From Methyloversatilis universalis EHg5 (GTDB lineage: Bacteria; Pseudomonadota; Gammaproteobacteria; Burkholderiales; Rhodocyclaceae): DNA of 64,000 nucleotides. Both the position numbers and the translations under genes were made by a program. Below, piece after piece: positions 18,587 through 34,567 of this stretch (its first letter is position 1; the number at the start of each line of letters is the position of its first letter). The stretch spans positions 3,976,688-4,040,687 of the forward strand of contig NZ_KB900539.1 of NCBI RefSeq assembly GCF_000378945.1, read 5' to 3'. Below the pieces are notes generated by a model. The model was not told the DNA's origin. It saw nothing but the letters and a program-made list of their open reading frames with translations, and made no database searches.

Positions 18587-18714
18587 GAATCTCTCCCTGT
18601 CAGCCATCCGCACGCTTCGGCCCGCGTGGCGCACCTCCAGGGGCGCGCTTCATCGCCGGCCTCCGCCACCCCGCGGACAGCTCGTTGCAGTCGCGACCGC
18701 AGGGCGGTCGCCCC

Positions 18715-18916
18715 GGTCACAGGCCGGTCTCCGGACTTGCAGGTCTTGATGCGCCGCCTTCCCGGGTTGTCCCAGTGGCTGGCCGCTCCGTCGGAGCCGC
18801 CGTGACGCACCCGCACCTGCCTACCGTTGCGGGGGCAGTCGGGGCCTTGCGCGTCGCCGCGCTCACCCCGTTCCCGTTTCACCCGCCGCCCTGAAGGACG
18901 ACGGACACCTGTAACC
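18715..18916 (-). promoter_or_regulatory. Cobalamin riboswitch (leader of receptor gene)
   Basis: Read on the minus strand from 18916, the closing helix GGTTACAGG pairs perfectly with CCTGTGACC at the 3' end (18715-18723). Between them are the conserved blocks of the class: AACGGGAACGGGGTG, ACTGCCCCCGCAACGGTA, GCCACTGGGACA, CCGGGAAGGCGG and AAGTCCGGAGACCGGCC. The family binds adenosylcobalamin and shuts off the downstream gene. It ends about 130 bases before the receptor start at 18586. The rest of the 395 bp gap holds only the leader to the ATG and the end of the upstream gene. Confidence 0.93.
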
Positions 18917-18981: not shown

Positions 18982-19785
18982 TCAACCGTCGAGACAGGCT
19001 TCCAGCGCCGCCAGTCCGTCGGTCAGCGCGGCAATGCCCGGCGCCAGTATCAGCGCCGACTTGATCTCGTACAGCCGATCGCTGGCGACCGCCGGCACCG
19101 CGGCCCAGCCTGGCCGGGCACGCAGGTGATCCGGCTGGAATTTCTTGCCGCACCAGGAGCCGATGATGATGTCGGGCGCGCGCGCGACCACCTCGAGCGG
19201 ATCCTCGATACGCCGCTCCTTCGCGCTGTGGCGGGTGGCGAAATCGGCGAACACGTCTTCGCCGCCGGCCAGCGTGATCAGTTCGGACACCCAGCGGATG
19301 CCGGAAATGAGCGGTTCGTCCCACTCCTCGAAATAGACCCGCAGCCGGCGGCCGTGGCGGGCGATGCGCGCTTCGCCGCGCGCGCGGGCGGCCTCCAGGC
19401 CGCGCGAAAGATCCGTCACCAGCGCCCGTGCCTCGGCCGCGCGGCCGACCAGCGCGCCGGTGGTCACGATCATGCGCAGGATGCCGGCGATCGAACGCTG
19501 GTTGAACACGTGCACCTCGACGCCGGCGCGCACCAGATCGCGGCACATGTCGGCCTGCAGATCGGAGAAGGCCAGCACCAGATCCGGCTCGACCGCGAGG
19601 ATGCGTTCCAGCTTGCCGGACGAGAAGCCGCTGATTTTCGGCTTGTCGCGACGCGCCTCGGGCGGCCGCACGGTGAAGCCGGAAATGCCGGCGATGCGGT
19701 CGGCTTCGCCCAGCGCGTACAGCACTTCGACCGCTTCGGTGCACAGGCAGGCGATGCGTTCGGGATACAGGTCACCGGTGCTCAC
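18982..19785 (-). CDS. BtuF-like cobalamin-binding protein without signal peptide
   Basis: A 267-residue class III periplasmic-binding fold: RIACLCTEAVEVLYALGEADRI at the start, DLVLAFSDLQADMCRDLVRAGVEVHVFN, LRVYFEEWDEPLISGIRWVSELITLAGGEDVF, and APDIIIGSWCGKKFQPD (all shortened here). The start is GTG 19785, overlapping the btuF stop (GTGA), which gives no export signal. An in-frame extension to 19950 exists but lies inside btuF and adds no signal either. Leaderless relatives of this kind occur beside corrinoid genes. Whether it is exported another way or works in the cytoplasm is unclear. Confidence 0.75.
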   Translation of the reverse strand: MSTGDLYPERIACLCTEAVEVLYALGEADRIAGISGFTVRPPEARRDKPKISGFSSGKLERILAVEPDLVLAFSDLQADMCRDLVRAGVEVHVFNQRSIAGILRMIVTTGALVGRAAEARALVTDLSRGLEAARARGEARIARHGRRLRVYFEEWDEPLISGIRWVSELITLAGGEDVFADFATRHSAKERRIEDPLEVVARAPDIIIGSWCGKKFQPDHLRARPGWAAVPAVASDRLYEIKSALILAPGIAALTDGLAALEACLDG

Positions 19786-20663
19786 TTGCGGCCCGCCTTC
19801 TGGCGCGCCTGTTCCAGCTGATCGCACAGCTTCTGCGCGCCGTCGAGGATGCGCGGCGTGTGTCGCTGCAGGATTTCCGGCGGAATGAAATACAGGTTGT
19901 CGCCCTTCACCGCCGGCAGCGCGGACCAGCGGCGCCAGGCGTCCAGCCACTCCGGCCGCGACTCACCCATGCCGCTGGCGACGATGACTTCGGGCGCTGC
20001 CGCCAGCACCGCCTCCTCGGTCACCGTCGGCGCCAGTATCGGCAGGCCGGCGAACACGTTGCGGCCGCCGCACAGCGCCATCACGTCGGAAATCAGATGC
20101 TGGCCGTTGATGGTCATCAGCGGCTTGTTCCAGATCTGGTAGAACACCGCGACCGGCGGCCGCGTCGCGTACTGTTTCGCCAGCGCGTCTCGTCGCGCGC
20201 GGAAGGCACGCGCCGCCTCGTCCGCCTCGCGCGGCGTGGCGGCGATGCGGCCGAAGGTTTCGAGCGCGCGCGCCACGTCGTCCAGGCTGCGCGGCTCGTT
20301 CACGAACACCGGTATGCCGAGCTTTTCCAGCCTGTCGTACTGCTGGTTGCGGTTGCCGCTCTTCCACGCGATCACCAGATCCGGCTTCAGCGCGACCACC
20401 GCTTCCATATCCACCGAGGTGTAGCCGCCGACGCGCGGAATCTTCTTCGCCGCGTCCGGGTAGTCGCTGTACTGGGTCGCACCGACCACCTTGCTGCCGG
20501 CACCGGCGGCGAACAGCAGTTCGGTCACGTGCGGCGCCAGGCTGACGATGCGCTGCGCCGGTGCGGCCAGCACCACGCTGCGGCCAGCGTCATCGGTCAG
20601 CCGCAGTTCCGCCGCGGCCGGCAGCGCCAGCGCAGCGAGCAGCAGGAAAAATGCTTTCTTCAT
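19782..20663 (-). CDS. btuF: Periplasmic cobalamin-binding protein BtuF
   Basis: The 293-residue protein has a Sec signal (MKKAFFLLLAALALPAAA) and the BtuF-type binding fold: RIVSLAPHVTELLFAAGAGSKVVGAT, YPDAAKKIPRVGGYTSVDMEAVVALKPDLVIAW, and LYFIPPEILQRHTPRILDGA (cited in part). It captures cobalamin in the periplasm for BtuCD. The ABC permease and ATPase are about 10 kb upstream on the same strand (30450-32254). It overlaps the leaderless paralogue downstream. A REP pair lies in its leader. Confidence 0.85.
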   Translation of the reverse strand: MKKAFFLLLAALALPAAAELRLTDDAGRSVVLAAPAQRIVSLAPHVTELLFAAGAGSKVVGATQYSDYPDAAKKIPRVGGYTSVDMEAVVALKPDLVIAWKSGNRNQQYDRLEKLGIPVFVNEPRSLDDVARALETFGRIAATPREADEAARAFRARRDALAKQYATRPPVAVFYQIWNKPLMTINGQHLISDVMALCGGRNVFAGLPILAPTVTEEAVLAAAPEVIVASGMGESRPEWLDAWRRWSALPAVKGDNLYFIPPEILQRHTPRILDGAQKLCDQLEQARQKAGRK

Positions 20664-20701: not shown

Positions 20702-20804
20702 GTGGGAGCGGCGCCCCCGCCGCGATTGCAGCCGTGAAGCCGGGACAGTGCGCGATCGCGAGCCCTTATCGCAGGCCCCTTCGCGGCGAGGGCGCCGCTC
20801 CCAC
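20702..20804. repeat. REP-type repeat pair B, overlapping the cobD 3' end
   Basis: Forward unit 20702-20726 and reverse unit 20781-20804 of the same element as at 15498-15678, spaced by about 54 bp. The reverse unit lies inside the last codons of the cobD gene (stop at 20766-20768) and supplies its C-terminal residues ([14 protein letters not shown]). The forward unit lies between cobD and btuF. Confidence 0.8.
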
Positions 20805-21821
20805 CGGACTGTGCGCAGCTCCGCGCCCATCGGCAGCCACTTCGTCCATCGCCTGTTCCAGCCGCCGCCACTCGCCCTCGTCCGCCGGCAGGCCGAAGCG
20901 CAGCGCGGCCGGCGCGTCGAACAGGCGCAGCAGGATGCCGCGCCGGCAGAAGGCTTCGTGCAGCGCGGCGGCATCCTTCGTCAGCACGCGCTGGAACAGA
21001 CCGCAGCCACTCACTTCGCCCCAGCCCGCGGCGCGCAGCAGCGCTTCGAGCCGTGCGCCCTCGGTTGCCAGCCGGGCGCGCTGCGCCGCCTGCCAGTCGC
21101 GATCAACCAGCGCACGCTGCGCCACCCAACGCGACGGGCCGGCCACCGGCCACGGCCCGAGCTTCAGCGCCAGTGCGTCGCGCAGCGACTGTTCGGCGAA
21201 CATGAAGCCCACGCGCGCGCCGGCCAGGCCGAAGAACTTGCCGAGCGAGCGCAGCACGACCAGACCGGGCCGGCCGGCGTGCTGCACCACGCTGGCGTCC
21301 GGCGTGGCGTCGATGAAGGCCTCGTCCACGATGAGGGTGCCGCCGCGCGCCGCCAGCCGCGCCTGCCACGCCATCACCTGCGCCGGCGGAAACAGCGTGC
21401 CGCAGGGATTGTTCGGCTGCACCAGCAGCAGCACGTCGACCGTGTCGACGGCCGACTCGACCTCGGCCGGTGCGACCGCGCGCACCGCGTGCCCGGCCTG
21501 TATCCAGCCGTGCGGGTGTTCGTTGTAGGTGGGCGACAGAATGGCCACCCGGCTGCGCGGAAACAGCACCGGCAGCAGCTGTATCGCCGCCTGCGAACCG
21601 GCCAGCGGCAGCAGTGCGTCGCTGCCGTAGAAGGCGGCCGCGGCCGCCTCCAGCCCGTCGTCGTCTTCCGGCAGGCGCTGCCACACCGACTGCGGCACCG
21701 GCGGCACCGGCCAGGGCTGCGGATTGATGCCGGTGGACAGATCCATCCAGGCCGCCGGATCGATGCCGTAGCGGCGGGCCGCTTCCTGCAGCCGGCCGCC
21801 ATGCAGCGGGCGGGCGCTCAC
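20766..21821 (-). CDS. cobD: Threonine-phosphate decarboxylase-like aminotransferase (CobD/CobC)
   Basis: A 351-residue fold-type I PLP enzyme: [53 protein letters not shown], and the PLP-lysine segment [17 protein letters not shown]. In the cobalamin pathway CobD (Salmonella name; CobC in P. denitrificans) decarboxylates L-threonine phosphate to the aminopropanol phosphate that CbiB attaches. The start GTG 21821 overlaps the cbiB stop. The last ~15 residues are encoded by a REP element and look like an accidental extension. Confidence 0.85.
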
Positions 21822-22762
21822 AGCAGGCTCCACAGGCCGAGCGCCGTGGCGACCGCCAGCCACAGCCACAGCGCGTGCTGCACCAGCGCCACCGCGCGGT
21901 CGATGTCGGCGGCGGCCGGTGGCGCACCCTCGCCCAGCGGCGGCCGCTGTTCGAGTTCGCCGTGATAGATGGCGGCGCCGCCCAGCGCGACGCCCAGCGC
22001 GCCGGCACCGGCCGCCATCACCGGGCCGGCGTTCGGGCTGTCCCAGGCCTTCGCCTGCGCGCGCCAGCAGGCCAGCGCGCGTGCGGTGGCCGCGCGGCTG
22101 AAACCGCACAGCGCATAGCTCAGCGCGGTCAGCCGCGCCGGCACGAAATTGAGCAGGTCGTCGATGCGCGCCGCCGCCCAGCCGAAATAGCGCAGGCGCG
22201 GCGTGCGGTAGCCCCACATCGCGTCCAGCGTGTTGGCCAGCCGGAACAGCAGCGCGCCCGGCCCGCCCAGCAGGAAGAACCAGAACAGCGCGCCGAACAC
22301 CGCGTCGTTGCCGTTTTCCAGCACCGATTCGGTGGCCGCCTTGGCCACGCCGCTGTCATCGAGCTGCGTGGTGTCGCGGCTCACCATCCAGCCCACCCGC
22401 GCACGCGCCTGGTCGAGATCGCCGGCGGCCAGCGGACGCGACACCGCCTGCGCGTGCTCGCTCAGGCTGCGCGCGCCGATCGCCAGATAGAGCAGCCCGA
22501 CATCGACCAGCGCCTGCAGCATGCCGCCGGCGCTGCGCAGCCACAGCGCGACCAGCACGAAAGGCAGCACCGCGAGCGCCCAGGCGATGAGGCCGGGCAG
22601 CCGGGTGGCCGGGTCGCCCTGCGTCAGCGGCGGATTGAGCAGCGCCTGCAGTCGCGCGGCCAGCGCACCGAAGCCGACCAGCGGATGGAAGCGGCGCGGC
22701 TCGCCGAGCAGGCGGTCCAGCACCACCGCGGCGACCGCCGCCAGCACCAGTCCGAAGTTCAT
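21818..22762 (-). CDS. cbiB: Adenosylcobinamide-phosphate synthase CbiB
   Basis: A 314-residue membrane protein with family motifs [44 protein letters not shown] (in part), [31 protein letters not shown] and [21 protein letters not shown] (in part). It joins aminopropanol phosphate to adenosylcobyric acid (called CobD in P. denitrificans). ATG 22762 overlaps the bluB stop by four bases, and its own stop overlaps cobD, so the three genes are tightly coupled. Confidence 0.9.
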
Positions 22763-23424
22763 GCGCCGCCCTCCGGCCAGCGGTTCTCGCCGATCAGCAC
22801 GTCTTCCGGCAGCCGCGAGGCCCAGCCTTCCAGTTCCAGCATCGGCGCCGGGTAGAAGGCCTCGACATGACCGATGCACAGCACCGCGACCGGCCGCGCG
22901 CCCTCGGGCATGCCGACCAGCGCCGCCAGCCTGTCCGGATCGAAGATGGACACCCAGCCCATGCCCAGCCCTTCGGCGCGCGCCGCCAGCCACATGTTCT
23001 GGATTGCGCAGGCGCAGGAGGCGAGGTCCATTTCCGGCAGCGTGCGGCGGCCGAACACGTGGCGCTCGCGCCCTTCGCACAGCGCGACCACCAGCAGTTC
23101 GCCGCATTCGCGTATGCCTTCGACCTTGAGCCGCATGAAGGCTTCCTCTCGCTCGCCGAGCGCGCGCGCGGTGGCGATGCGCTCCTCGTCGACCAGCGTG
23201 TGGATGCCGTCGCGCAGCGCGGCGTCGGTCACGCGCACGAAGCGCCAGGGCTGCATGTAGCCGACGCTGGGCGCGTGGTGGGCGGCCCACAGCAGGCGGC
23301 GCAGCACCGCCGGATCGACCGGGTCAGGGCGGAAGTGGCGCATGTCGCGCCGCTCGGCGATGACGCGATAGACCGCCGCGCGCGCGTCGTCGTCGTAGGG
23401 CAGCGCTGCGGTGGCGTCACTCAT
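22759..23424 (-). CDS. bluB: 5,6-dimethylbenzimidazole synthase BluB
   Basis: The 221-residue flavin-destructase/nitroreductase-fold protein has [39 protein letters not shown] at the start (cited in part; residues ~26-64). [23 protein letters not shown] and [26 protein letters not shown] follow. BluB fragments FMNH2 with oxygen to make DMB, the lower ligand of cobalamin, so the cell can make its own base aerobically. It overlaps both neighbours (DUF2149 gene and cbiB) by four bases. Confidence 0.9.
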
Positions 23425-23729
23425 CGCTGGGCTCCGGCGGGGCTTTCGATCAGGATCATCTTGCCGGTCTGCGGGTCGAGATAGACCTGACCGAGCGCCT
23501 TCATGCCGGCGCCCTGCACCTGGGCGCCCTGATCCGGCGGCGCGATTTCGCGGCCGCGCTCGACCTCGACCGGGCGCAGCACCGCCTGCCCGCCGGCGGT
23601 GAGCGCCGCCAGCAGGCCGCACACGAATACCAGCATCACGTCGACCAGATTGACCAGGCTGGCGCGCGGATCCTCGTCGGCACCGTCGAAGCGCGAACCG
23701 AGGCGACGGCGGCTGCGACCGAGACTCAC
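23421..23729 (-). CDS. DUF2149 (ExbD-like) membrane protein
   Basis: A 102-residue protein with a basic N-tail, DPRASLVNLVDVMLVFVCGLL as a single helix (~23-43), and a periplasmic C-terminal region (VYLDPQTGKMILIES). The Asp inside the helix start (LVDVML) is placed like the essential Asp of ExbD/TolR/MotB. DUF2149 proteins are typically encoded beside ExbB-like and CobN-family genes, as here. GTG 23729 overlaps the ExbB-like stop and was chosen over upstream in-frame codons inside that gene. Likely partner of the ExbB-like channel. Confidence 0.75.
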   Translation of the reverse strand: MSLGRSRRRLGSRFDGADEDPRASLVNLVDVMLVFVCGLLAALTAGGQAVLRPVEVERGREIAPPDQGAQVQGAGMKALGQVYLDPQTGKMILIESPAGAQR

Positions 23730-24169
23730 CGTGCCGCTCCGGCGGTTTCGATCTCGTCCAGCAGTTCTTCGTACCAGCGGCGGCGCAGCCGGCCCACCCA
23801 CAGGCCGACGATGCCGGCAATCAGACCGAGCACGGTGGCGTCGAAGGCCACGGTGACCGCCTGCGCCAGCGCCTGCGATTCGCCGCGGCCGAGCGCGGCC
23901 AGACCCGGGCCGAGCGGAATGATGGTGGCCATCAGGCCCAGCATCGGCGGCACCCGCGCCAGCAGGTCCGCGCGTTCGAGCCGGCGGCGCGCCAGCTTCT
24001 CGATCGCCTGCGCGTCGCCACTCCGGCGCAGTGCGGCCAGCCCGCGCAGACGTTCGCCCAGCGCCAGCCCGGCTTCCAGCAGCGCCGCGGCGCAGGCGGC
24101 GAGCAGCACCGCGATCACCGGCAGCAGCAGCATTTTGACGCCTTCGTGTACCCAGCCCAGATCGGTCAT
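23726..24169 (-). CDS. MotA/TolQ/ExbB-type proton channel subunit
   Basis: A 147-residue short ExbB relative: a first helix (~13-34), a cytoplasmic helix rich in Arg, Ala and Leu, then VPPMLGLMATIIPLGPGLAALGRG and VTVAFDATVLGLIAGIVGLWVGRL, the two conserved MotA/ExbB helices (shown in part). The family forms pentameric proton channels driving TonB, TolA or flagellar stators. Encoded between the CobN-like gene (35 bp upstream) and DUF2149 (overlap), it should power one or both of these; no tonB gene is in the operon. Confidence 0.85.
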   Translation of the reverse strand: MTDLGWVHEGVKMLLLPVIAVLLAACAAALLEAGLALGERLRGLAALRRSGDAQAIEKLARRRLERADLLARVPPMLGLMATIIPLGPGLAALGRGESQALAQAVTVAFDATVLGLIAGIVGLWVGRLRRRWYEELLDEIETAGAAR

Positions 24170-24204
24170 GTCCTCATCCTCACCTGTTCATTGTTGCGTG
24201 TTCT

Positions 24205-27200
24205 TCATGCGGCGCGCGCGCCACGCCGCAGACCGGCAGCGAACAGCAGCGCAGCACCGGCCAGCAATGCGGCCCAGGGCGGCGTGGCCGCGGGGGCGGC
24301 GGCCACCGCCTTCAGTTCGCTCCAGCGCGCCGGTGCGGCGTCCGCCGCCGTCGCGTCAGCGGTGATGTCCGCGGGTGGCGCCGCCGGCACGGTCGCCTGC
24401 GCCGGTGCGGCGGGAGCGGCCAGCGGCTGCACGGCGTCGATCTGCGCACCCGCCAGCACCGCGCGCAGCGCCTGCGCGTCGTCCGCCGACAGCTGCGGCG
24501 CCAGCCAGTCCCACATCGCGTGGTCGGGCGCAGTGTGGCCGCTGCCCGGCAGGCCGGTGCGGCGGATCTGGCGCACCAGCTGCGTGCCCAGATCGCGCAC
24601 CGTGGCGGCGTCGGTCTTCCAGAAACCCTTGTGTGCGGCGACCAGCATGATGGCCAGCATCTGCGCCTTCACGTGGCCGTTGTGACCGCGTTCGAGAAAG
24701 GCGGGCAGACCGAGGCCGTGACCGTCGTCGATATACACGCGCTTCACCTCGTTCCACGCCCAGTCGCGGATCAGGTCGGGCCGCGTCACCTGCCAGCCCC
24801 ACAGGTTTTCCATGAACTCCTGGCCGAAGGTACGGGCGCCGGCGTAGCCGTGGCCCATCAGCGGGCGTATCCATTCCGGGTTCAGGTAGCGGCCGCGCAG
24901 TTCCGACAGCAGCGCGCTTTCCAGCGGCTCGACGCTGGCGTGCGCGGCGTCGGCGTTGTACAGCACGCGCGCGTCCGGCACGCGGCCGGTCAGCGTTTCG
25001 GCGGCCAGGCTGAGACCGCCGAGATAGTCGAAGGCGTCGTTGTTGTCGAGCAGGCCGTACAGATTGCTGGCGCGGCCGTGATAGGTGCGCGCCAGCTGCA
25101 CGACGCCGGCGTCGAAAGCGGCGTGCGCCGGCTCGCCGCCGGCATCCATGCCGTAGGCGTGGCCCATGCGGCGCAGATAGACGCGGCCCAGCTGTTCGCG
25201 CGCGGTCCAGCTGCCGGAACGTTCGGCCATGCGGTTCACGCCGGCGCCATAGGCGCCGGGCGCGTCGCCGAACACCCGCCAGGCGGCTTCACGGCCGGCG
25301 CGCTCCGGCGTGTGGCCAGCCTGCAGCAGCGTCGCCACGCGCGCCCGCCACTGCAGCGCCACCGCATTGCCAGCCAGCGGCTCAGTGCCGCGTGCGAGCT
25401 CGGGCAGCGGCGCCAGCGCGGCGTCGAGCGCCGGTGCGAGCGCGGCGTCGTCCGCCAGCAGCGTGCCGGCGCTGGCGGCCAGCGCCATGCGGCCGGCGCG
25501 GTCCAGCATGTTCACCAGATTGGGATAGAGGTCGCGGAACAGCCCCGAAGTAGTGACGATGACGTCGCGGCGGCCGCCTTCAGGCGCTGGCGCAAGCGCC
25601 AGCCCCTGCACCACGCCGCGCGCGTTCCACTGCGGCTCGACACCCATCAGCGCGAGGCTGAAGGCGAGCATGACGCCTTCGTCGCGCACCGCGTCCGACG
25701 CCCACATGACCACGCCTTCCGAACCGCCGGCCGAGGGCTTCGCCAGCACGCGGCCGGCCTGTTCGCGGCCCAGCGCGTAGCCGAGCCGGGTCGGCAGCAC
25801 ATCGCCATCGACCGCGTGGAAGTTGCGGCCGGTGGGCAGCGCGTCCGGTGCGCGCAGCGGGTCGTTGCCCTTGCCCGGCTCGATGTAGCGGCCGTCCAGC
25901 CCGGCCAGCAGGCCGGCCATTTCGGCCGCCGGCGACGCGATCAGCCGCGCACGCACCGGCTCCGCGTCGTCGCCGCGCGCCATCGAACCCATCATGGTGT
26001 CGATCGCCTGTGCCGACCACGGCCGGCCGAACACGTGCAGGCCCAGCGGCATGAACTTCTCCTGCAGCTTGGTCAGGTAGTGGCCGATCTCGTGCGCCAG
26101 CAGTTCGTCGTCCACCTGTTCGAAGCGCAGGCCGCGCACGGTGAGCACGTCGGCCATGCTGGCTTCGAGCTCGGCACGCAGTTCGAGCGCCTCGACCTGG
26201 CTGCGCATTTCCTTCGCGGCGCGCGCGCGCAGTTCGTCTGAACTGGAGCTTTCGAAGCTTTCGACCAGCTGGCGCAGCGTGAGCAGGCGGTCATACAGCG
26301 GCGTGGCGGCCAGCGGCGGCGTCAGGTGGTCCACCATGACCGCGCCGCCGCGCCGCTTGGCCTGCGTGCCCTCGCCGACACCATCGACGATGTAGGGATA
26401 GATGCCGGGCAGGTCGCCGGCAATCAGCGAGGGGTAGTCGGTGGCGGACAGCCCGACCGCCTTGCCCGGCAGGAATTCGTAGGTCGAGTGGCGGCCGACG
26501 TGCACCAGCGCGTCGGCGCGGAACACCGCGTGCAGCCAGCGGTACACCGCGAGGTACTGGTGCGGCGGCGGAATGCTGGTGTTGGCGTGCAGCAGCTCCT
26601 CGTCCACCTCCCAGCCGCGCGGCGGCTGCGGGCCCACCCACACCTTGCCGAACTGCAGGCCGGGCACCAGCAGGCGCCCGCCATGTTCTCCTGAGTCCTT
26701 TCCCCCCAACGCCTGCACCATCACCCTGCCCGGCGCGCGACCCCAGCCACGCAGGCCGGGGATGCCGAGGGCGACGATGGCGCGGCGCAGATTCGCCGCC
26801 TGCGCGCAGTGTTCGCCCGGCTCGCGGGCGACGCAGCGGTTCCACGCGGTTTCTATCTTCGCCAGCAGGGTGAGCGCGCGGTCGCGGCGCGGGTGGTCCA
26901 GCCCTTCGAGCAGGTGGCGCAGTTCGGCCACGCCGTGCGCGATGCGCGCGCGGCCGGTGGCCGGCAGACCGGCTTCGCGCGCCGCCATCACGTCGCCGTG
27001 GATGCGGCCGGGCGCGCCTTCGGCGACTTCCAGCCGGATGGCCAGCGGCAGCGTGTCGTACCAGCGCGCGTAGTCGGCGGCCGGCAGCGACGGCACCTCG
27101 CGCGCCAGCCGCGCCAGTTCGGCGCCGTTTTCCGGCAGGTTCACGCCGCGGTCCATCAGCAGGTCGAGCAGCGCCTCGGCGCTGTCCGGCAGTTCGCCGG

Positions 27201-28512
27201 TGTCATAGCCGGCATCGCGCAGGGCGCGCAGCATCTGCAGCAGCGAAGCCGGTACGTCGAGGTTGTCGGCGCCGATGTTCTGCCGGCCCGGCGGGTGGTT
27301 GTAATAGACCAGCGCGATGCGCTTGTCGGCGTTGGCTTTCGCGCGCAGCGCCTGCCAGCGGGCGACGCGCGCGGCCAGGCGCTGCATTTCGTCGGCCAGC
27401 GGCTCGGGCGGCCGCAGCGCCACGCCGGTCAGCGCATCGGTGCGCTGGGCGCCCGCGACCGCCACCACCTGCGGCTGGCCGATGCCCTGCAGTTCGGGCA
27501 GCGCGATGCGGTACTGCACGCTGGGCGCCGGCAGGCCGTCGGCCGACAGCGCCCACTCGGCGCGGCTGCGGTCGTGCATGCGAACCGCCTTGAACACCGG
27601 CACGTCCAGCGCCTGCAGCGCGCGGGTGACCGATTCGCGGCCCTCGGCGGCGCCGAGCACGAAATCCTGCAGCACCACTGCCGACACCAGGCGCGCCGGC
27701 GAAATGCGCGCGGCCAGCGCGTCGACCGCACGGCGCGACGGCTCGCCCCAGCGCGCCAGCACCGCGACGCAGCCGGTACCGCGGGCAGCGATGGCGGCGC
27801 ACTGCGCGTCGGCGATGCGCGCGTCCTGATTCACCAGATCGATCACCGCAACCACCGGTGCACCGGACGCGAACGGCAGACGCTCGGCGTCCGGCAGGTT
27901 GCGGCCGGCCACCCGCCACAGCAGGTCGGGCGCCGGCTGCGGCGCCGGCAGCGCGCCCGGCTGCAGGAAGTGGCGCAGCAGCGCCGACAGGTTGTCCGGC
28001 CCGCCGGCCTGCCACAGCGCACGCAGCGCCTGCCATTCGCGCAACAGCGGGTCGGCACCGGCGCGCGCGGCCAGCGCCGGATCGGGCGTGCCGCGCAGCA
28101 GGGCCGCCAGTTCGTCGGCGCTGTAGCGGTCCAGCCGTGCATCGCCGCGCCGGCTCAGCGTGGCCAGCGCGCCCGGCCCTTCGGCATTGAAGGCGAACAC
28201 CGCCTGCGGCCGCTTCACGTCCTCCAGCGCGGCGCGCAGACGCGGGCCGGATTCGCCGAAGGCGGCGACCGCGAACACGGTGTCGGCGCGCTCCAGTTCG
28301 CGCCTCAGTTCGGCCGGCGACAGCGCCTCGACCTGCGACGGCGTGCGCAGCCTGAAGGTGTGGCCGCGCAGCGCCGGGCCGAGTGCACGCACCGCCTCGG
28401 CCACGTCCGGCGCCGCGCGTTCGGACAGCACGCCGAACACGGTGGCGGCCAGCGCCTGCCCCGCGCAGAGCAGCAGCAGGCAGGACATCAGCAGGCGCAG
28501 CACGCGCGTCAC
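24205..28512 (-). CDS. cobN: CobN-family chelatase with export signal and C-terminal anchor
   Basis: A 1435-residue CobN/BchH/HmuS-family protein. Core motifs include LVHVGRHSTYEFLPGKAVGLS, AGDLPGIYPYIVDGVGEGTQAKRRG, HGYAGARTFGQEFMENLWGWQ and AHKGFWKTDAATV. Unlike cytoplasmic CobN, it begins with a Sec-type signal (LLMSCLLLLCAGQALA, cleavage ~22) and ends with an Ala/Pro linker and a membrane helix (PPWAALLAGAALLFAAGLRRG, in part). The body should therefore be periplasmic. The start is GTG 28512, with GGAG seven bases upstream and three bases after cobB. It is the first of the CobN/ExbB/DUF2149 trio. CobN normally inserts Co2+ into hydrogenobyrinate diamide with CobST in the cytoplasm; relatives called HmuS act on haem in Bacteroidota. 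A corrinoid or haem (de)chelatase is more likely here than classic cobalt insertion. Confidence 0.85.
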   Translation of the reverse strand: MTRVLRLLMSCLLLLCAGQALAATVFGVLSERAAPDVAEAVRALGPALRGHTFRLRTPSQVEALSPAELRRELERADTVFAVAAFGESGPRLRAALEDVKRPQAVFAFNAEGPGALATLSRRGDARLDRYSADELAALLRGTPDPALAARAGADPLLREWQALRALWQAGGPDNLSALLRHFLQPGALPAPQPAPDLLWRVAGRNLPDAERLPFASGAPVVAVIDLVNQDARIADAQCAAIAARGTGCVAVLARWGEPSRRAVDALAARISPARLVSAVVLQDFVLGAAEGRESVTRALQALDVPVFKAVRMHDRSRAEWALSADGLPAPSVQYRIALPELQGIGQPQVVAVAGAQRTDALTGVALRPPEPLADEMQRLAARVARWQALRAKANADKRIALVYYNHPPGRQNIGADNLDVPASLLQMLRALRDAGYDTGELPDSAEALLDLLMDRGVNLPENGAELARLAREVPSLPAADYARWYDTLPLAIRLEVAEGAPGRIHGDVMAAREAGLPATGRARIAHGVAELRHLLEGLDHPRRDRALTLLAKIETAWNRCVAREPGEHCAQAANLRRAIVALGIPGLRGWGRAPGRVMVQALGGKDSGEHGGRLLVPGLQFGKVWVGPQPPRGWEVDEELLHANTSIPPPHQYLAVYRWLHAVFRADALVHVGRHSTYEFLPGKAVGLSATDYPSLIAGDLPGIYPYIVDGVGEGTQAKRRGGAVMVDHLTPPLAATPLYDRLLTLRQLVESFESSSSDELRARAAKEMRSQVEALELRAELEASMADVLTVRGLRFEQVDDELLAHEIGHYLTKLQEKFMPLGLHVFGRPWSAQAIDTMMGSMARGDDAEPVRARLIASPAAEMAGLLAGLDGRYIEPGKGNDPLRAPDALPTGRNFHAVDGDVLPTRLGYALGREQAGRVLAKPSAGGSEGVVMWASDAVRDEGVMLAFSLALMGVEPQWNARGVVQGLALAPAPEGGRRDVIVTTSGLFRDLYPNLVNMLDRAGRMALAASAGTLLADDAALAPALDAALAPLPELARGTEPLAGNAVALQWRARVATLLQAGHTPERAGREAAWRVFGDAPGAYGAGVNRMAERSGSWTAREQLGRVYLRRMGHAYGMDAGGEPAHAAFDAGVVQLARTYHGRASNLYGLLDNNDAFDYLGGLSLAAETLTGRVPDARVLYNADAAHASVEPLESALLSELRGRYLNPEWIRPLMGHGYAGARTFGQEFMENLWGWQVTRPDLIRDWAWNEVKRVYIDDGHGLGLPAFLERGHNGHVKAQMLAIMLVAAHKGFWKTDAATVRDLGTQLVRQIRRTGLPGSGHTAPDHAMWDWLAPQLSADDAQALRAVLAGAQIDAVQPLAAPAAPAQATVPAAPPADITADATAADAAPARWSELKAVAAAPAATPPWAALLAGAALLFAAGLRRGARAA

Positions 28513-28515
28513 CCG

Positions 28516-29817
28516 TCAGCTCCGGAACAGCGCCGCCACGGCCTGCGGGTCCGACGGGAAGTACAGATGGACATAGCTGGCGGTGAGCCGCTCGCGGCGA
28601 TACACCGCCTCGCCGTCGCGTCCGTCGGCGGTGCGCGCGTGGGTGAGCGCGGCCAGCGGCGTGTCGGCCGTGGAGTAGTGGAAAGTGTGGCCGCGCAGAC
28701 GGCCTTCCGGCAGCTCGACCTGCTGCAGGCCGAGCGCGGCCAGCCGGGTCTGCATGCGCACCGCGCCCGGCAGCAGACCGGCGCCGGCGTGGGTGACGCC
28801 GGCCTTGTCGGTCAGCGTGTCGAACAGGCTCATCATGCCGCCGCACTCGGCCAGCAGCGGCCGGCCAGCATCGACATGGGCGCGCAGCGCGGCGTGCAGC
28901 GCGGTGTTGGCGGCCCAGCGCGCGGCGTGCAGTTCCGGGTAGCCGCCGGGCAGCCACACGGCGTCGCAGACCGGCAGCGCGGCGTCATTCAACGGCGAGA
29001 ACTCGACCAGCTCGGCGCCAAGCGCGCGCAGACAGTCGAGATTGGCCGGGTAGATGAAGCAGAAGGCGTCGTCGCGCGCCAGCGCGATGCGCACGCCGTC
29101 GAGCAGGCGCGGCAGCGCCGTCTGTTCGACCGGGGCGAAATCCACCGCCGGCGGCAGGTCGGCGGTGGTCGAGGCGCCGAGCAGTTCGGCGGCGATGTCG
29201 AGCTGGGCGTCCAGCCCCTCGATCTCGGCCGCCGGCAGCAGGCCGAGGTGGCGCTCCGGCAGCGCGATGCGTTCGTCGCGCGGCAGGCCGCCGTACCAGG
29301 CGATGTCGGCCGGCAGGCTGTCGCGCAGCATGTCGATGTGGCGGGCGGAGCCGACCCGGTTGGCGATCACCGCGGTCAGGTTCACGCCGTCGCGGTAGTG
29401 CTTCAGGCCGTGCGCCAGCGCGCCGAAGGTCTGCGCCATCGCGCGCGCATCGATCACCGCCAGCACCGGCAGACCGAAGCGGCGCGCGATGTCGGCGCTG
29501 GACGGGCTGCCGTCGTGCAGGCCCATGACCGACTCGACCAGGATGAGATCGGCGTCGCCCGCCGCCTCGTACAGCCGGGCGGCGATGTCGGCGTCGCCGG
29601 TCATCCACAGATCGACATTGCACACCGGTGCACCGCTGGCCAGCGCGTGGATCTGCGGATCGAGGAAGTCCGGTCCGCACTTGAACACGCGCACCCGGCG
29701 GCCGCGGGAGCGGTGCAGCCGCGCGAGCGCGGCGACCACCGTGGTCTTGCCCTGACCGGAGGCGGGCGCCGCCACCATCAGCGCCGGACAGCGACGCGTG
29801 TCCGCGGCCGCGCTCAC
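28516..29817 (-). CDS. cobB: Cobyrinate a,c-diamide synthase (CobB/CbiA)
   Basis: A 433-residue protein: P-loop ALMVAAPASGQGKTTVVAALA at the start (in part), FKCGPDFLDPQIH, then a glutamine-amidotransferase-like domain with WLPGGYPELHAARWA and the catalytic Cys segment LLAECGGMMSL. It amidates the a and c side chains of cobyrinate (CbiA) or hydrogenobyrinate (CobB) using ATP and glutamine. Adjacent GTG codons at 29820 and 29817 are both possible starts; the second overlaps the cobO stop. It lies three bases ahead of the CobN-like gene. Confidence 0.9.
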   Translation of the reverse strand: MSAAADTRRCPALMVAAPASGQGKTTVVAALARLHRSRGRRVRVFKCGPDFLDPQIHALASGAPVCNVDLWMTGDADIAARLYEAAGDADLILVESVMGLHDGSPSSADIARRFGLPVLAVIDARAMAQTFGALAHGLKHYRDGVNLTAVIANRVGSARHIDMLRDSLPADIAWYGGLPRDERIALPERHLGLLPAAEIEGLDAQLDIAAELLGASTTADLPPAVDFAPVEQTALPRLLDGVRIALARDDAFCFIYPANLDCLRALGAELVEFSPLNDAALPVCDAVWLPGGYPELHAARWAANTALHAALRAHVDAGRPLLAECGGMMSLFDTLTDKAGVTHAGAGLLPGAVRMQTRLAALGLQQVELPEGRLRGHTFHYSTADTPLAALTHARTADGRDGEAVYRRERLTASYVHLYFPSDPQAVAALFRS

Positions 29818-30413
29818 CACTCCAGCCCCGGCATCGCCTTCACGCCGGCCTTGAAGGCGTGTTTCACCATGGTCATGTCGGTCACCGTGTCGGCGGCCTC
29901 GACCAGTTCCGGCGGCGCGGCGCGACCGGTCACGATGACGTGCTGCATGGCCGGCCTCGCCTGCAGGTCGGCGATGACGGCGGCAACGTCGAGGTAGTGG
30001 TACTTCAGCGCGATATTCAGTTCGTCCAGCACCACCAGCCCGATGGCCGGATCGCGCAGGAAGGCACGCGCCTGGTCCCAGGCCGCTTCGGCGGTGGCGA
30101 CGTCGCGCGCGCGGTTCTGGGTTTCCCAGGTGAAGCCTTCGCCGGACACATGCCACTGCACGTCCGGCTGGCGGCGGTAGAAGGCTTCTTCGCCGGTGTC
30201 GGAGCGGCCCTTGATGAACTGCACCACGCCCACCTTCATGCCGTGGCCCAGCGCCCGCGCGACCACACCGAAAGCGGCGCTGGACTTGCCCTTGCCGGTG
30301 CCGGTGTTCACCACCAGCACGCCGCGCTCGACCTTGGCGGCGGCGATGGCCTGATCGACCACCTCCTTCTTGCGCTTCATGCGCGTTTCATGGCGCTCGT
30401 CGAGATCACTCAT
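29814..30413 (-). CDS. cobO: Cob(I)yrinic acid a,c-diamide adenosyltransferase
   Basis: A 199-residue CobA/CobO/BtuR-type enzyme: HETRMKRKKEVVDQAIA, Walker-type GTGKGKSSAAFGVVARALGHG, VVQFIKGRSDTGEEAFYRR, and LVVLDELNIALKYHYLD. It transfers 5'-deoxyadenosine from ATP to the Co(I) corrinoid in the cytoplasm. ATG 30413 (GAGG eight bases upstream) gives the family length; an in-frame extension to 30440 is unlikely. It lies between btuD and cobB. Confidence 0.93.
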   Translation of the reverse strand: MSDLDERHETRMKRKKEVVDQAIAAAKVERGVLVVNTGTGKGKSSAAFGVVARALGHGMKVGVVQFIKGRSDTGEEAFYRRQPDVQWHVSGEGFTWETQNRARDVATAEAAWDQARAFLRDPAIGLVVLDELNIALKYHYLDVAAVIADLQARPAMQHVIVTGRAAPPELVEAADTVTDMTMVKHAFKAGVKAMPGLEW

Positions 30414-30449
30414 GACGGTTTCCTCATTCCTTTCACTCACTTCTCTCGC

Positions 30450-31235
30450 TCACGCCGGCACGAAATAGCGCCGGCCGTCGTCGCGCAATTCCTTCAGCGG
30501 ATGGCAGAAAGCGCGCGACAGCACCTCTGCCTGCAGCACCTCATCCACCGGCCCGCACACCCATTCACCGCCGCCGGTCAGCAGCAGCGCGCGGTCGGCG
30601 AAGCGCAGCACCTGATTCAGGTCGTGCAGCACCGCCACCACGGCCCGCCCTTCTTCCCGCGCCAGCCTTGCGAACAGCGCCAGCGTTTCGATCTGGTAAT
30701 CCAGATCGAGATGGGTGACCGGCTCGTCCAGCAGGCAGACCGGCGCCTGCTGCGCCAGCAGTGCTGCGATCGCCACGCGCTGCCGCTCGCCGCCGGACAG
30801 CGTGCGCACCTCGCGCAGTTCGAAGCCGCGCAGCGCGACCGCCGCCAGCGCCGCCAGCGCGATGTCGACATCGGCATCGCTCTCGTCCGACCAGCGGCCG
30901 ATGTGCGGATGGCGACCGACCAGCACGGTGTCGAGCACGGTGGAGGCGAAGTGGTCCTCGTGCGACTGCGCCAGCAGCGCGCGCCGTTTCGCCAGTTCGC
31001 GCGCCGGCCAGTCGGTGAGCGTGCGGCCCTCCAGCGCCACGCTGCCGGCCGACGGTGCGCGCAGCCCGGCCAGCGTGCCGAGCAGCGTCGATTTGCCGAT
31101 GCCGTTGCGGCCGACGATGGCCAGCAGTTCGCCCGGCCGCACGTCCAGATCGAGGCCGGTGCACAGCGCGCGGTCGGCCACCGACACGTCGAGGCCCCGG
31201 GCGGACAGCAGCGGCGTGCGGGCGACAGCGCTCAT
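30450..31235 (-). CDS. btuD: Cobalamin ABC transporter ATP-binding protein
   Basis: A 261-residue ABC ATPase of the BtuD/FhuC/FepC group: Walker A GRNGIGKST, Q-loop LLAQSHED, signature LSGGERQRV, Walker B VCLLDEPVTHLD, switch His LHDLNQ. ATG 31235 overlaps the stop of the permease gene by four bases. It powers cobalamin import with the permease and the BtuF protein encoded about 10 kb downstream. Confidence 0.9.
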   Translation of the reverse strand: MSAVARTPLLSARGLDVSVADRALCTGLDLDVRPGELLAIVGRNGIGKSTLLGTLAGLRAPSAGSVALEGRTLTDWPARELAKRRALLAQSHEDHFASTVLDTVLVGRHPHIGRWSDESDADVDIALAALAAVALRGFELREVRTLSGGERQRVAIAALLAQQAPVCLLDEPVTHLDLDYQIETLALFARLAREEGRAVVAVLHDLNQVLRFADRALLLTGGGEWVCGPVDEVLQAEVLSRAFCHPLKELRDDGRRYFVPA

Positions 31236-32254
31236 CGGTTGCGGTTCAGCAGGAACAGGAACACCGGCACGCCCAGCAGCGCGGTCAGCACGCCGACCGG
31301 CAGCTGGGCCGGCGCGATGACGGTGCGCGCCGCGGTGTCGGCCAGCAGCAGCAGCGTGGCACCGGCCAGCGCGCTGGCCGGCAGCAGCAAGCGCTGGTCG
31401 TTGCCGAAGGCGAGCCGGATCAGGTGCGGCACGACCAGACCGACGAAGCCGACCGACCCCACCGTGGTGACCGCAATCGCGGTCAGCGCCGACGCCAGCA
31501 GATAGACCATGAGGCGCAGGCGGGCGACCGGCACGCCCAGCGTCTGCGCAGTGGCGTCGCCGCGCGCCAGCAGATTGAGGTCACGCGCCAGCGGCGCACA
31601 GGCGATCAGCCCGGCGACCAGCGCACCCACCGCCACGCCCGGGCGGCTGGCGGTGCTGGCGTCGCCCATCAGCCAGAACAGCATGCCGCGCAGCGACTGT
31701 TCGCTCGCTACCGCGAGGATGAAGGACACCGCCGCGCCACAGCCGGCAGACACGATGACGCCGGTCAGCAGCAGGCGGGTGGGCGTGCGGCTGCCCTGCC
31801 CGTGCGACAGCCCGAACACCAGCGCCATCGCGCCCAGCGCACCGACGAAGGCGGATAGCTCCAGCAGCATGCCGGCCACACCGGCCAGCATGGCCAGCAG
31901 CGCGCCCACCGCTGCACCGCCGGAAATGCCCAGTACATAGGGATCGGCCAGCGGGTTGCGCAGCAGCACCTGCATCAGCGCACCGGCCAGCGCCAGCAGG
32001 CCGCCGCAGGCGGCCGCGGCCAGCGCACGCGGCAGACGCAGCGAGGTGACGATGGCCCCTGCGGTGCCGGCGTCACCCCCGGTCACGATCTGCCACAGCT
32101 CGGCCGCACTGACGGTCACGCTGCCCACCGCCAGCGTGAGCGCGAAGGCGGCGACCAGTGCCAGCAGCAGCGCCGGCAGCACCCACGCACGCCGCCGACC
32201 CGCGCTCAGGGCGGCAGGCGATGGCAGGGCAGCGGCGGGGGGATGGCGGCTCAT
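31232..32254 (-). CDS. btuC: Cobalamin ABC transporter permease
   Basis: A 340-residue FecCD/BtuC-family permease with about ten membrane helices and the landmarks LRLPRALAAAACGGLLALAGALMQ (in part), RNPLADPYVLGISGGAAVGA, TLGVPVARLRL, and GSVGFVGLVVPHLIRLAFG. It lies 31 bp after the btuB stop and overlaps btuD, giving a btuB-btuC-btuD transport unit under the riboswitch at 34263-34465. Confidence 0.9.
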   Translation of the reverse strand: MSRHPPAAALPSPAALSAGRRRAWVLPALLLALVAAFALTLAVGSVTVSAAELWQIVTGGDAGTAGAIVTSLRLPRALAAAACGGLLALAGALMQVLLRNPLADPYVLGISGGAAVGALLAMLAGVAGMLLELSAFVGALGAMALVFGLSHGQGSRTPTRLLLTGVIVSAGCGAAVSFILAVASEQSLRGMLFWLMGDASTASRPGVAVGALVAGLIACAPLARDLNLLARGDATAQTLGVPVARLRLMVYLLASALTAIAVTTVGSVGFVGLVVPHLIRLAFGNDQRLLLPASALAGATLLLLADTAARTVIAPAQLPVGVLTALLGVPVFLFLLNRNR

Positions 32255-32285: not shown

Positions 32286-34130
32286 TCAGAAACGCGGCGT
32301 GTAACGCACGCCGACGAAAGCGTTCGCGCCCGATGTTTCGTAACCGAATACCGAGGTGTAGCGGCGGTCGTTCACGTTATTCACCCGCGCTTCGACCGAC
32401 ACCTCGGGCGAGGCCTTCCACACGCCGAACAGATTGAGCAGCGCATAGCCGCCCATGCGGCGCAGCTCGCCCGGCTCGGACCAGCGGTCACCCACCGCCT
32501 GCACCTCGACCCCCACCCGCCCGGCCAGCATGTGCTGCTGCACCGTCACCGTGGCGGTCTGTGCGGCGCGACGCTGCAGGCGCAGGCCGGTGTCCTCGTC
32601 ACGCGCACTCAGGATGTCCACACTGCCCTGCACTTCGGTGTGGCCGAACACATAGGTAGCCGCCTCGAAAGTGGCGCCCTTCAGCCGCGCTTCGGCCACG
32701 TTCACCAGCGGGGCGCGCGAATTGATCAGGTTCTGCACCCGGTTGTCGTAGGCGGTAACCGCAAAACGCGTCGATTTGCGCTGCCAGGCCAGACCGATCT
32801 CGCGGTTGGTCGACGACTCCGGCTTCAGATCCGGATTGCCGAAGTTCGGGAAGTAGAGCTGGTTGAAGGTGGGCAGCCGGTAGCCGGTGCCGTAGGCGAC
32901 GCGTGCGGTCAGGTCGTCGGTCAGGCGATAGCCGTAGCCGGCATTGCCGGTGGCCTTGCCCGAGCCACCGGTGTAGCGGTCGTGCCGGGTGTTCAGCTGC
33001 AGCAGGTGGCGGTCGATCTGTGCGGTCCAGCCCAGCTGGCCGGAATCGACCCGGCGCGTCTGGTCGAGGTTCACCGCGGTGGGCGTTACCGACAGCACGT
33101 CCTGCTCCAGCCGCTCGATGCTGCCGAACAGCGTGCCCAGCGGCAGCTTCACCCGCGCCTCCAGCGCCTGCGTGGTCTGTTCGGTGCGGAAGCCGTTGCC
33201 CAGTGGCGAGGTACGCGCGTAACTGGTGAAGTCCTCGATGCTGCGGCCGAAGCGCAGCGTGGTGGTGAGCCAGTCGGTCCACGCGTGTTCGGCGGCGGCG
33301 GTGAGCACGCTGTTGTTGAACACATTGCGGGTATTCACGAAGGCCAGACCGGAGTCGTATTCGTTGTAGCCCTCGCTGTCGAGCAGGCTGACCGTCAGGC
33401 GGGTGCCGGCCTGGGGCGTGACGCCGACCGAGCCGCTCACGCTGCGGTTCAGGTGGGCGTCGCGGTCCGGGTTGTAGTTGCGGCGGGAGGCGGCCACGCC
33501 CAGATTGATGTCCGGATTGGTCGTGCTGAAACCGCGCGTGTGATACAGGCTGCCGGCCAGCGAAAAGTCGATCACGCCGTTGCCGCCACGCAGGCCGACC
33601 CGGCTGTCGCTGGTGCCGTAGCTGCCGGCGCCGGTGAAGAGGTCGAAGTCCAGACCGGGCTCGCCGCGGCGGGTGAAGATCTGGATCACGCCGCCGATCG
33701 CGTCAGCGCCATAGACCGCGGACGCGGGACCGCGCAGCACCTCGATGCGCTCGATCTGCGACAGCGGCAGGTACTGCAGCGCAGCCGTACCACTGGAGCC
33801 GGACCCGACCCGCACGCCATCGATCAGCACGACGCTCTGGCGCGTATCGGCACCGCGGATGAAGAAGTCGGTGCTGGCGCCGGGGCCGCCCTGACTGGTC
33901 ATCTGGATGCCCGGCTGGCGGGCCAGCAGTTCGGTCAGCGTGGACTGGGCGGCGGTTTCGATCTGTTCGCGATCCAGTACGGTCACGTCGGCCAGCGTGT
34001 CCTGTACCCGCTGCTCGACGCGGTTGGCGGTGATGACCACCGGATGCATCGTCTGCTGGGCGGCTGCGGAATGGGAAAGAAGCGTGGCGGCGCCCGCGAC
34101 GAGCGCGGCGACCGGGGTGAGGCGAGGCAT
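32286..34130 (-). CDS. btuB: Vitamin B12 TonB-dependent receptor BtuB
   Basis: The 614-residue protein, the same length as E. coli BtuB, has a signal ending SAAAQ (~26) and a TonB box VVITANR at about 32-38. A plug domain follows (TELLARQPGIQMTSQGGPG, then GADTRQSVVLIDGVRVGSG and RIEVLRGPASAVYGADAIGGVIQI, each in part), and the barrel ends VGVRYTPRF. It imports cobalamin across the outer membrane. ATG 34130 follows AGGGAG. Preceded by a cobalamin riboswitch and followed by btuC and btuD. Confidence 0.92.
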   Translation of the reverse strand: MPRLTPVAALVAGAATLLSHSAAAQQTMHPVVITANRVEQRVQDTLADVTVLDREQIETAAQSTLTELLARQPGIQMTSQGGPGASTDFFIRGADTRQSVVLIDGVRVGSGSSGTAALQYLPLSQIERIEVLRGPASAVYGADAIGGVIQIFTRRGEPGLDFDLFTGAGSYGTSDSRVGLRGGNGVIDFSLAGSLYHTRGFSTTNPDINLGVAASRRNYNPDRDAHLNRSVSGSVGVTPQAGTRLTVSLLDSEGYNEYDSGLAFVNTRNVFNNSVLTAAAEHAWTDWLTTTLRFGRSIEDFTSYARTSPLGNGFRTEQTTQALEARVKLPLGTLFGSIERLEQDVLSVTPTAVNLDQTRRVDSGQLGWTAQIDRHLLQLNTRHDRYTGGSGKATGNAGYGYRLTDDLTARVAYGTGYRLPTFNQLYFPNFGNPDLKPESSTNREIGLAWQRKSTRFAVTAYDNRVQNLINSRAPLVNVAEARLKGATFEAATYVFGHTEVQGSVDILSARDEDTGLRLQRRAAQTATVTVQQHMLAGRVGVEVQAVGDRWSEPGELRRMGGYALLNLFGVWKASPEVSVEARVNNVNDRRYTSVFGYETSGANAFVGVRYTPRF

Positions 34131-34262
34131 TGCTGTTGTGCTCCCTGCAGCGGCCGTCCGTCCCCGAACGACCGCGATGTCATGAAGCCATGACGGGGAT
34201 CGCACACCACGCAGGCGAGCACGCCTCCGTCGCGATGCCGCACCCCGGGCATGACCGCTCGT

Positions 34263-34465
34263 GCATCCGGGGCCGGTATCCGGGCTCGCAGGGGCGACGG
34301 CGGAACCGTCGCGGCGCACCGCCTTCCCAGGCATGAAGCCCAGTGGCGTGTCGATGCGCGTCATCTGCTTACCGTTGCGGGGGCAGCGCAGGCCTTGCGA
34401 GCGGAGCTCGCGCACCTGCTTCCCGTTCAACCCTCGGCCGGAACGGCGTCGGGCACCTCGAATGC
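34263..34465 (-). promoter_or_regulatory. Cobalamin riboswitch (btuB leader)
   Basis: Read on the minus strand from 34465: the P1 arm GCATTCGAGG pairs with CCCCGGATGC near 34263. Conserved blocks are AACGGGAAGCAGGTGC, GCTGCCCCCGCAACGGTAAG, GCCACTGGGC, CCTGGGAAGGCGG and GCGAGCCCGGATACCGGCC. It lies about 130 bases upstream of the btuB ATG, the same spacing as in the other receptor. The 553 bp gap 34131-34683 holds this element, the leader and a REP pair, and nothing else I recognise. Confidence 0.93.
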
Positions 34466-34567
34466 GGGTTCCGCCAAGGCGGAACAGCCGCGCACGATAC
34501 CACCGGGCGGCAGAAGGCCCAAACCGGCGGAGGGCTGCGCTCGATGCGGAGACCGGACAAAGATCCG

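Follow-up and report, generated by a model that had tools for sequence, protein, structure and literature searches.

The 64,000-nucleotide stretch of Methyloversatilis universalis EHg5 DNA analysed here (the window) carries on its minus strand a B12-uptake operon with a cobalamin riboswitch, in which an exported protein of the CobN superfamily is encoded together with ExbB-like and DUF2149 partners. The gene order is riboswitch-btuB-btuC-btuD-cobO-cobB-cobN-exbB-DUF2149-bluB-cbiB-cobD-btuF (Table 1). We estimate at roughly 50% the probability that this trio is a periplasmic homologue of the class I chelatases, anchored in the inner membrane and coupled to the proton motive force (pmf), which acts on corrinoids imported through BtuB, likely by inserting or restoring cobalt or else by re-processing the metal centre. 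We infer the periplasmic site, the proton coupling and the corrinoid substrate, a substrate class that the genomic context suggests; that the reaction is insertion and not another one is the least certain element of the proposal.

A preliminary description of this DNA had recognised a CobN-family protein of 1435 residues that carries an export signal as well as a C-terminal helix, followed at a short distance by an ExbB-like subunit and an overlapping DUF2149 protein, all within a cobalamin operon. Each of these elements is confirmed, the protein by its PF02514 match and hydropathy and the context by the riboswitch and the surrounding cob and btu genes. Hydrophobic segments of the CobN homologue begin at residues 7 and 1412, and residues 1-22, judged by hydropathy and motif only, resemble a signal peptide ending in A-L-A. 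The exbB gene starts 35 bp past the cobN stop; the DUF2149 gene most probably starts at the GTG at 23729 (102 residues) rather than at 23801 and overlaps the exbB stop as GTGA, while its 3' end shares ATGA with the start of bluB (23424). The hydrophobic segment of the DUF2149 protein contains an Asp that is invariant in 16 aligned sequences and that we take to be equivalent to Asp25 of Escherichia coli ExbD; a profile search gave no ExbD Pfam match for this protein.

Among 399 genomes of the order (Burkholderiales), CobN-superfamily proteins were matched in 90, DUF2149 in at least 30, CbiC in 33 and CobT-like proteins in 18, none of the last above the cut-off. Thirty-five fetched regions, together with the loci collected earlier, supplied 59 CobN proteins (five duplicate loci, L079-L083, were excluded before alignment), which were grouped by catalytic-loop motif and context into the window type (W, 8 proteins), other anchored proteins (class A, 21), CobN (N, 13) and BchH-like proteins (H, 17). 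Both terminal hydrophobic segments are present in all eight W proteins. In class A the C-terminal segment is found in 21 of 21 and the N-terminal one in 18, the exceptions being L075 and L076, which are cut at the N-terminus, and L100, which scored 1.18; the N and H rows score 0.51 or less for an N-terminal segment, and none is long enough for a C-terminal helix. All eight W loci have exbB and then DUF2149 after cobN, and all eight have a cobalamin riboswitch (one match is cut by the region end), as against 2 of 21 class A loci. A tree was built from the C-terminal 393 columns of 68 rows, with nine of ten added W proteins found and L050 lost for length. Each group formed one side of a branch, with supports of 100/100 for W (17), 98/97 for A (21), 100/99 for N (12) and 100/100 for H (17). 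W is thus a separate clade, outside the CobN and BchH clades, and a split supported at 99/97 places W, A and the Bacteroidota protein HmuS on one side and N and H on the other. Because HmuS has a long branch and the long H and N branches meet, the deep joins call for caution. Anchored members of the superfamily are associated with ExbB/DUF2149, and cytosolic ones with AAA+ partners (for the latter, PMC7689651). Most simply read, ExbB/DUF2149 would provide the chelatase with motion driven by the pmf. Within class A, the anchored CobN proteins of L070 and L073 lie among cob genes, and L073 and L091 lie near cobalamin riboswitches; corrinoid use may therefore have arisen repeatedly among anchored chelatases.

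When a species collection was scanned with the W alignment and the best 80 of 271 relatives were retained, the nearest relative was found in Methyloversatilis (79% identity), and carriers included Dechloromonas, Zoogloea, Massilia, Methylobacillus, Pseudomonas, Stutzerimonas, Azotobacter, Steroidobacter, Zhongshania and others, as well as single metagenome-assembled genomes of Myxococcota and Nitrospirae. (The 80-locus and order sets overlap in at least five loci: L107, L111, L115, L131 and L138.) An ExbB-like match follows the cobN open reading frame (ORF) within 700 bp in 80 of 80 loci, and DUF2149 does so within 750 bp in 78; in the other two, L152 and L171, the contigs stop inside exbB. 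A chance arrangement of ORFs is rejected because the trio is conserved across these relatives. The N-terminal hydrophobic segment is present in 78 of 78 W proteins and the C-terminal helix in 72, four of the remainder scoring low and two being too short for scoring. A riboswitch profile matched 74 of the 80 loci and none of 115 base-shuffled controls; it was made from 13 Rfam matches of the same loci families, its matches on overlapping contigs are not independent, and among the 21 class A loci it picks out the same two that Rfam does. Of the matches, 45 share the strand of the cobN match and are no more than 600 nt upstream of it, 27 lie farther upstream and two are on the other strand; the weak ones are L147 (8e-5), L181 (5e-6) and L150, L154, L156 and L163 (about 3e-6 to 5e-6).

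The window genome has a single CobN homologue and no sign of a route for corrin-ring synthesis: CbiC was not found in it, and of its four TP_methylase matches two are taken for SUMT, one for RsmI and the last, a weak one, for an RsmI-like protein. The organism seems not to produce B12 de novo but keeps late and salvage genes, and the retention of cobB in such a genome may hint at uptake of early corrins. In 50 of the 80 genomes, picked as isolates or good assemblies and searched for CbiC and CobN, CbiC was found in five, and only Azotobacter had a CobN with a classic-type score (sorted by score alone); within the order, one of the eight W genomes has CbiC. These data bear on the notion that the predicted export is an error and the protein is a classic cobaltochelatase subunit of the cytoplasm. 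Matches to PF02514 and to all nine NCBIfam CobN-type models speak for it, though all nine fall under their cut-offs. The lack of any sign of ring synthesis, the conserved signal and C-terminal helix and the separate clade make it so improbable that we reject it, and they uphold the earlier judgement that this is a poor candidate for that enzyme. As for a cobS/cobT pair elsewhere, which the preliminary description had named as a refuting case if it depended on this protein, the one CobT model used gave no match in the window genome or in any of the eight W genomes, but it is weak, recovering just 4 of 13 genomes of the order that have a classic-type CobN, and the partner search was confined to it, with CobS and ChlI/ChlD-type partners not searched. 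In three Zoogloea loci (L119, L121 and L136) the W trio stands beside a second riboswitch and genes that by eye resemble cbiM, cbiX and cbiD; here the surroundings are those of a B12 producer, whereas most carriers are non-producers.

W proteins share a sequence signature (Table 1), its counts of 81 comprising 78 pattern-scored sequences and three Billgrantia proteins examined separately, which retain H675, HExGH and D1159 and have Tyr in place of H671. Cysteines 238 and 248 are conserved in 77 and 78 of 78 sequences, respectively. In the alignment, neither class A nor the N and H sequences have the His pair of the HExGH motif; the motif, which we take to be metalloprotease-like in sequence, might mark a metal site, although this is a guess. 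It stands 15 residues ahead of His826. At the catalytic loop W has GRHS, the CobN rows have GKHG, and BchH and most class A rows have GTHG. This last difference would also suit a hand-over without metal chemistry, in which the fold would bind a periplasmic corrinoid with His675 as axial ligand and the motor would open it, releasing a ligand-stripped or base-off corrinoid to BtuF/BtuCD. Such a role shares the genomic evidence for the chelatase reading and fits the presence of btuCD and btuF within the operon. We consider it possible but on the unlikely side, since the invariance of H675 and Asp1159 in 81 of 81 sequences goes beyond the apparent need of mere binding, and since btuCDF-like genes were unseen within the flanks of many loci.

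The ExbB-like/DUF2149 pair could alternatively energise the neighbouring BtuB, the CobN homologue being a side activity. Many of the 80 loci do contain TonB-dependent receptors, two ExbB-DUF2149 pairs are found without CobN, and HmuU/HmuV have been interpreted in this way in Bacteroides (PMC10100974, PMC12583661). The window genome, however, has two complete TonB-ExbB-ExbD sets elsewhere (C1:2382291-2383801 and C1:1903071-1904506), so that BtuB need not rely on the trio. In the order survey, by coordinates, 27 of 29 DUF2149 places above the cut-off have a CobN match no more than 5 kb away; the survey's DUF2149 counts are lower bounds, the window's own DUF2149 being unlisted and the place in G269 not being the one beside its CobN. 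The pair also accompanies CobN in loci with no matched receptor. Methanosarcina acetivorans is an archaeon without an outer membrane, where such a pair should not serve receptors; its genome matches CobN, DUF2149 and MotA/ExbB and has no ExbD or TonB_C match (these are genome-level matches, adjacency not being seen). Energising BtuB is, on these grounds, an unlikely function of the pair. A conserved fourth gene was sought 3' of DUF2149, with own-operon matches excluded: no cluster occurred in more than nine loci, and the largest resembles a wrong frame of cobB.

Under the chelatase reading, a BtuB-type receptor would bring corrinoids into the periplasm, where the CobN homologue would be held by its C-terminal helix. 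A CobST/ChlID motor would be unable to work there without ATP, and ExbB with DUF2149 may replace it as an ExbB/ExbD-like proton motor that moves the chelatase. The enzyme would put cobalt into cobalt-free or wrongly metallated corrins, or else re-process the corrin metal centre, and the product would enter through BtuF/BtuCD and meet CobO, CobB, CobQ and CbiB in the cytoplasm. We prefer insertion or repair to removal because the B12 riboswitch would express the trio at B12 shortage, when destroying corrinoids or mining haem iron would be of little use; the same argument leaves room for hand-over. Demetallation in the periplasm, whether to recover cobalt from corrinoids or to release haem iron as HmuS does, has in its favour that HmuS, which groups with W among the anchored proteins in the tree, is reported to be a haem de-chelatase (PMC12583661). 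Both forms had been raised in the preliminary description and are rejected here, the whole idea being in our view very unlikely. Cobalt recovery conflicts with the riboswitch and with the 45 of 50 carriers without CbiC. As for haem, the Met-rich insertion, the haem-ligand pair and His1209 that define HmuS are missing, and a Bacteroides fragilis btuS1 btuS2 double mutant still freed protoporphyrin IX (PPIX) from haem (PMC6460266). What survives of the earlier proposal is a putative pmf-powered periplasmic machine that may feed the cobO, cobB and cobQ steps.

Several observations weigh against the chelatase reading or narrow what can be drawn from the data. The weakness of the CobT model is one. 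Two ExbB-DUF2149 pairs stand without CobN, one of them in the window's own genome; in that pair (L077, G000:C1:1922383-1923017) the DUF2149 score is above the window's own. The window operon showed no gene for a cobalt carrier. Six of the 80 loci have no riboswitch match, two of these having less than 2 kb of upstream sequence. The Asp at the position of HmuS His1209 is CobN-like, but most of the displayed class A rows have it too, and hence alone it is no marker of corrin chemistry; L075, of class A, has His and Glu at the HmuS His1209 and Glu1212 positions, unlike the remaining class A rows shown. The lack of CbiC is equally common order-wide (366 of 399 genomes) and hence indicates independence from ring synthesis, not enrichment; an enrichment of B12 auxotrophs among trio carriers was accordingly dropped as a claim. 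Nor is it proven that cobalt-free corrins are supplied in nature.

The trio points to a B12-salvage step outside current pathways in many Beta- and Gammaproteobacteria. It also offers a testable case in which a proton motor may drive a chelatase-type enzyme where ATP is lacking. For W-type genes, a 'CobN' annotation tallied as B12 synthesis may mislead. One could go further and envision two energy regimes for class I chelatases, cytosolic with AAA+ partners and anchored with ExbB/DUF2149, W being a pmf-driven corrin metallase with which B12 auxotrophs would charge cobalt-free or damaged corrins with cobalt in the periplasm, so far an unrecognised salvage route; this wider scheme is offered tentatively, and we would rather bet against it than for it.

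Table 1. Features of the B12-uptake operon and residues of its CobN homologue (window coordinates)
Feature	Position	Strand	Evidence
Cobalamin riboswitch preceding operon	34254..34475	-	RF00174, 84.2 bits, E 2.7e-19
btuB-like TonB-dependent receptor	32286..34130	-	top NCBIfam TIGR01779 TonB-B12, 367 bits, under equivalog cut-off 599.7
btuC-like permease	31232..32254	-	PF01032
btuD-like ATPase	30450..31235	-	PF00005
cobO corrinoid adenosyltransferase	29814..30440	-	PF02572; TIGR00708 above cut-off
cobB cobyrinate a,c-diamide synthase, start approximate	28516..29820	-	PRK01077, 448 bits, above cut-off
CobN-superfamily protein (W type), exported, C-terminally anchored, 1435 aa	24205..28512	-	PF02514, 798.8 bits; hydropathy; clade W 100/100
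Catalytic loop H671-x-G-R-H675	26488..26502	-	H675 = HmuS His538 position; H675 in 81/81 W sequences
W-specific motif H807-E-x-G-H811	26080..26094	-	81/81 W sequences
Asp1159 at HmuS His1209 position	25036..25038	-	81/81 W sequences
ExbB-like proton-channel subunit	23726..24169	-	PF01618, 35.3 bits, cut-off 22.9
DUF2149 (ExbD-like), Asp within hydrophobic segment NLVDVMLVF	23421..23729	-	PF09919, 31.2 bits, cut-off 27.1
bluB	22759..23424	-	TIGR02476, 272 bits, above cut-off
cbiB	21818..22762	-	TIGR00380 above cut-off
cobD/cobC-like threonine-phosphate decarboxylase	20766..21821	-	TIGR01140 above cut-off
btuF-like periplasmic binding protein	19782..20663	-	PF01497; PRK03379, 203.6 bits, under cut-off
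cobQ cobyric acid synthase, just upstream of riboswitch	34684..36144	-	TIGR00313 above cut-off

After btuF lies a second Peripla_BP_2 protein (18982-19785, minus strand), in which no signal peptide was seen by eye and whose relatives adjoin bluB in several other loci. A second cobalamin riboswitch (18717-18914, minus strand) precedes a second TonB-dependent receptor (16493-18634, minus strand), which matched no B12 model and gave only weak siderophore-type and TonB-Xanth-Caul matches.

The nearest described parallel is the hmu system of Bacteroidota. The hmuYRSTUV operon includes CobN, ExbB and DUF2149 genes (PMC10434189), and HmuS with HmuU (ExbB-like) and HmuV (DUF2149) resembles the window trio in combining an exported, anchored CobN-superfamily protein with a TonB-dependent receptor in the operon (PMC10434189, PMC12583661, PMC13227078). 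In the six-gene hmu set the companions are hmuY and hmuR, in place of which the window has a cobalamin riboswitch and cob/btu genes, and hmuT separates HmuS from the ExbB-like gene, whereas nothing intervenes between cobN and exbB in the window. The proteins share the catalytic His, HmuS His538 corresponding to His675 of the window protein (the stretches are of equal length and the motif agrees; HmuS residues are taken from PMC12583661). They differ at HmuS His1209, replaced by Asp1159 (LSLDHxxEFMGG in HmuS, LLDNNDAFDYLGG in the window protein), and in the Met-rich insertion (domain IV), where HmuS 616-1009 (393 residues) compares with window residues 753-933 (180), some 213 fewer. No counterpart of the haem ligands Met79 and His254 was seen: across residues 23-405, eight W sequences have neither a Met nor a His that is invariant, and the Met79 region is unaligned to HmuS. 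The HExGH motif is found in W only and not in HmuS.

The role of such proteins in haem use is itself not uniform in print. HmuS is reported to be a de-chelatase that depends on NADH (PMC12583661), whereas the B. fragilis btuS1 btuS2 mutant grew poorly on haem iron yet continued to form PPIX (PMC6460266). BtuS was named in 2003 by Rodionov et al., as cited in PMC6460266, for a third CobN-related type predicted to act in metalloporphyrin salvage. BtuS1 and BtuS2 are, like the window protein, predicted to be exported and anchored, but differ in that the tested proteins influence haem-iron use (PMC6460266), and BtuS proteins of Methanosarcina barkeri respond to the iron source (PMC10846266). Closer in regulation are hmu-like operons of B. 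fragilis NCTC 9343, in which a cobalamin riboswitch accompanies an anchored chelatase and a cobalamin-related role was proposed; they differ in having two HmuR copies and in belonging to Bacteroidota, and are likened here by description only (PMC10100974). The cobN-exbB-exbD-tonB cluster on pSZ77 of Geobacter lovleyi has a CobN without cobS/cobT, with ExbB/ExbD-type and cobalamin genes adjoining, but includes tonB and receptors, and is likened by description, not by clade (PMC3403914). For chelatases encoded beside a cobalamin receptor in Chlorobaculum tepidum, insertion of cobalt into imported cobalamin has been speculated (PMC8620254). Classic CobN shares with the window protein the superfamily match, the catalytic His and the Asp at the His1209 position, but belongs to another clade and is cytosolic, driven by ATP with CobS and CobT and devoted to ring synthesis (PMC7689651).

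The window protein fits an anchored-chelatase group defined here by signal, C-terminal helix and ExbB-like and DUF2149 neighbours. Among the papers listed from the openly accessible literature, closed journals being outside the search, none dealt with the riboswitch-linked trio of proteobacteria itself. The BtuS name, the HmuS-ExbB-DUF2149 operons, the riboswitch-linked hmu-like operons of Bacteroidota and the speculation on cobalt insertion were already known from the papers cited; what is new, as far as could be searched, is a proteobacterial subfamily that is conserved and has its own signature, together with the link between anchored chelatases and ExbB/DUF2149.

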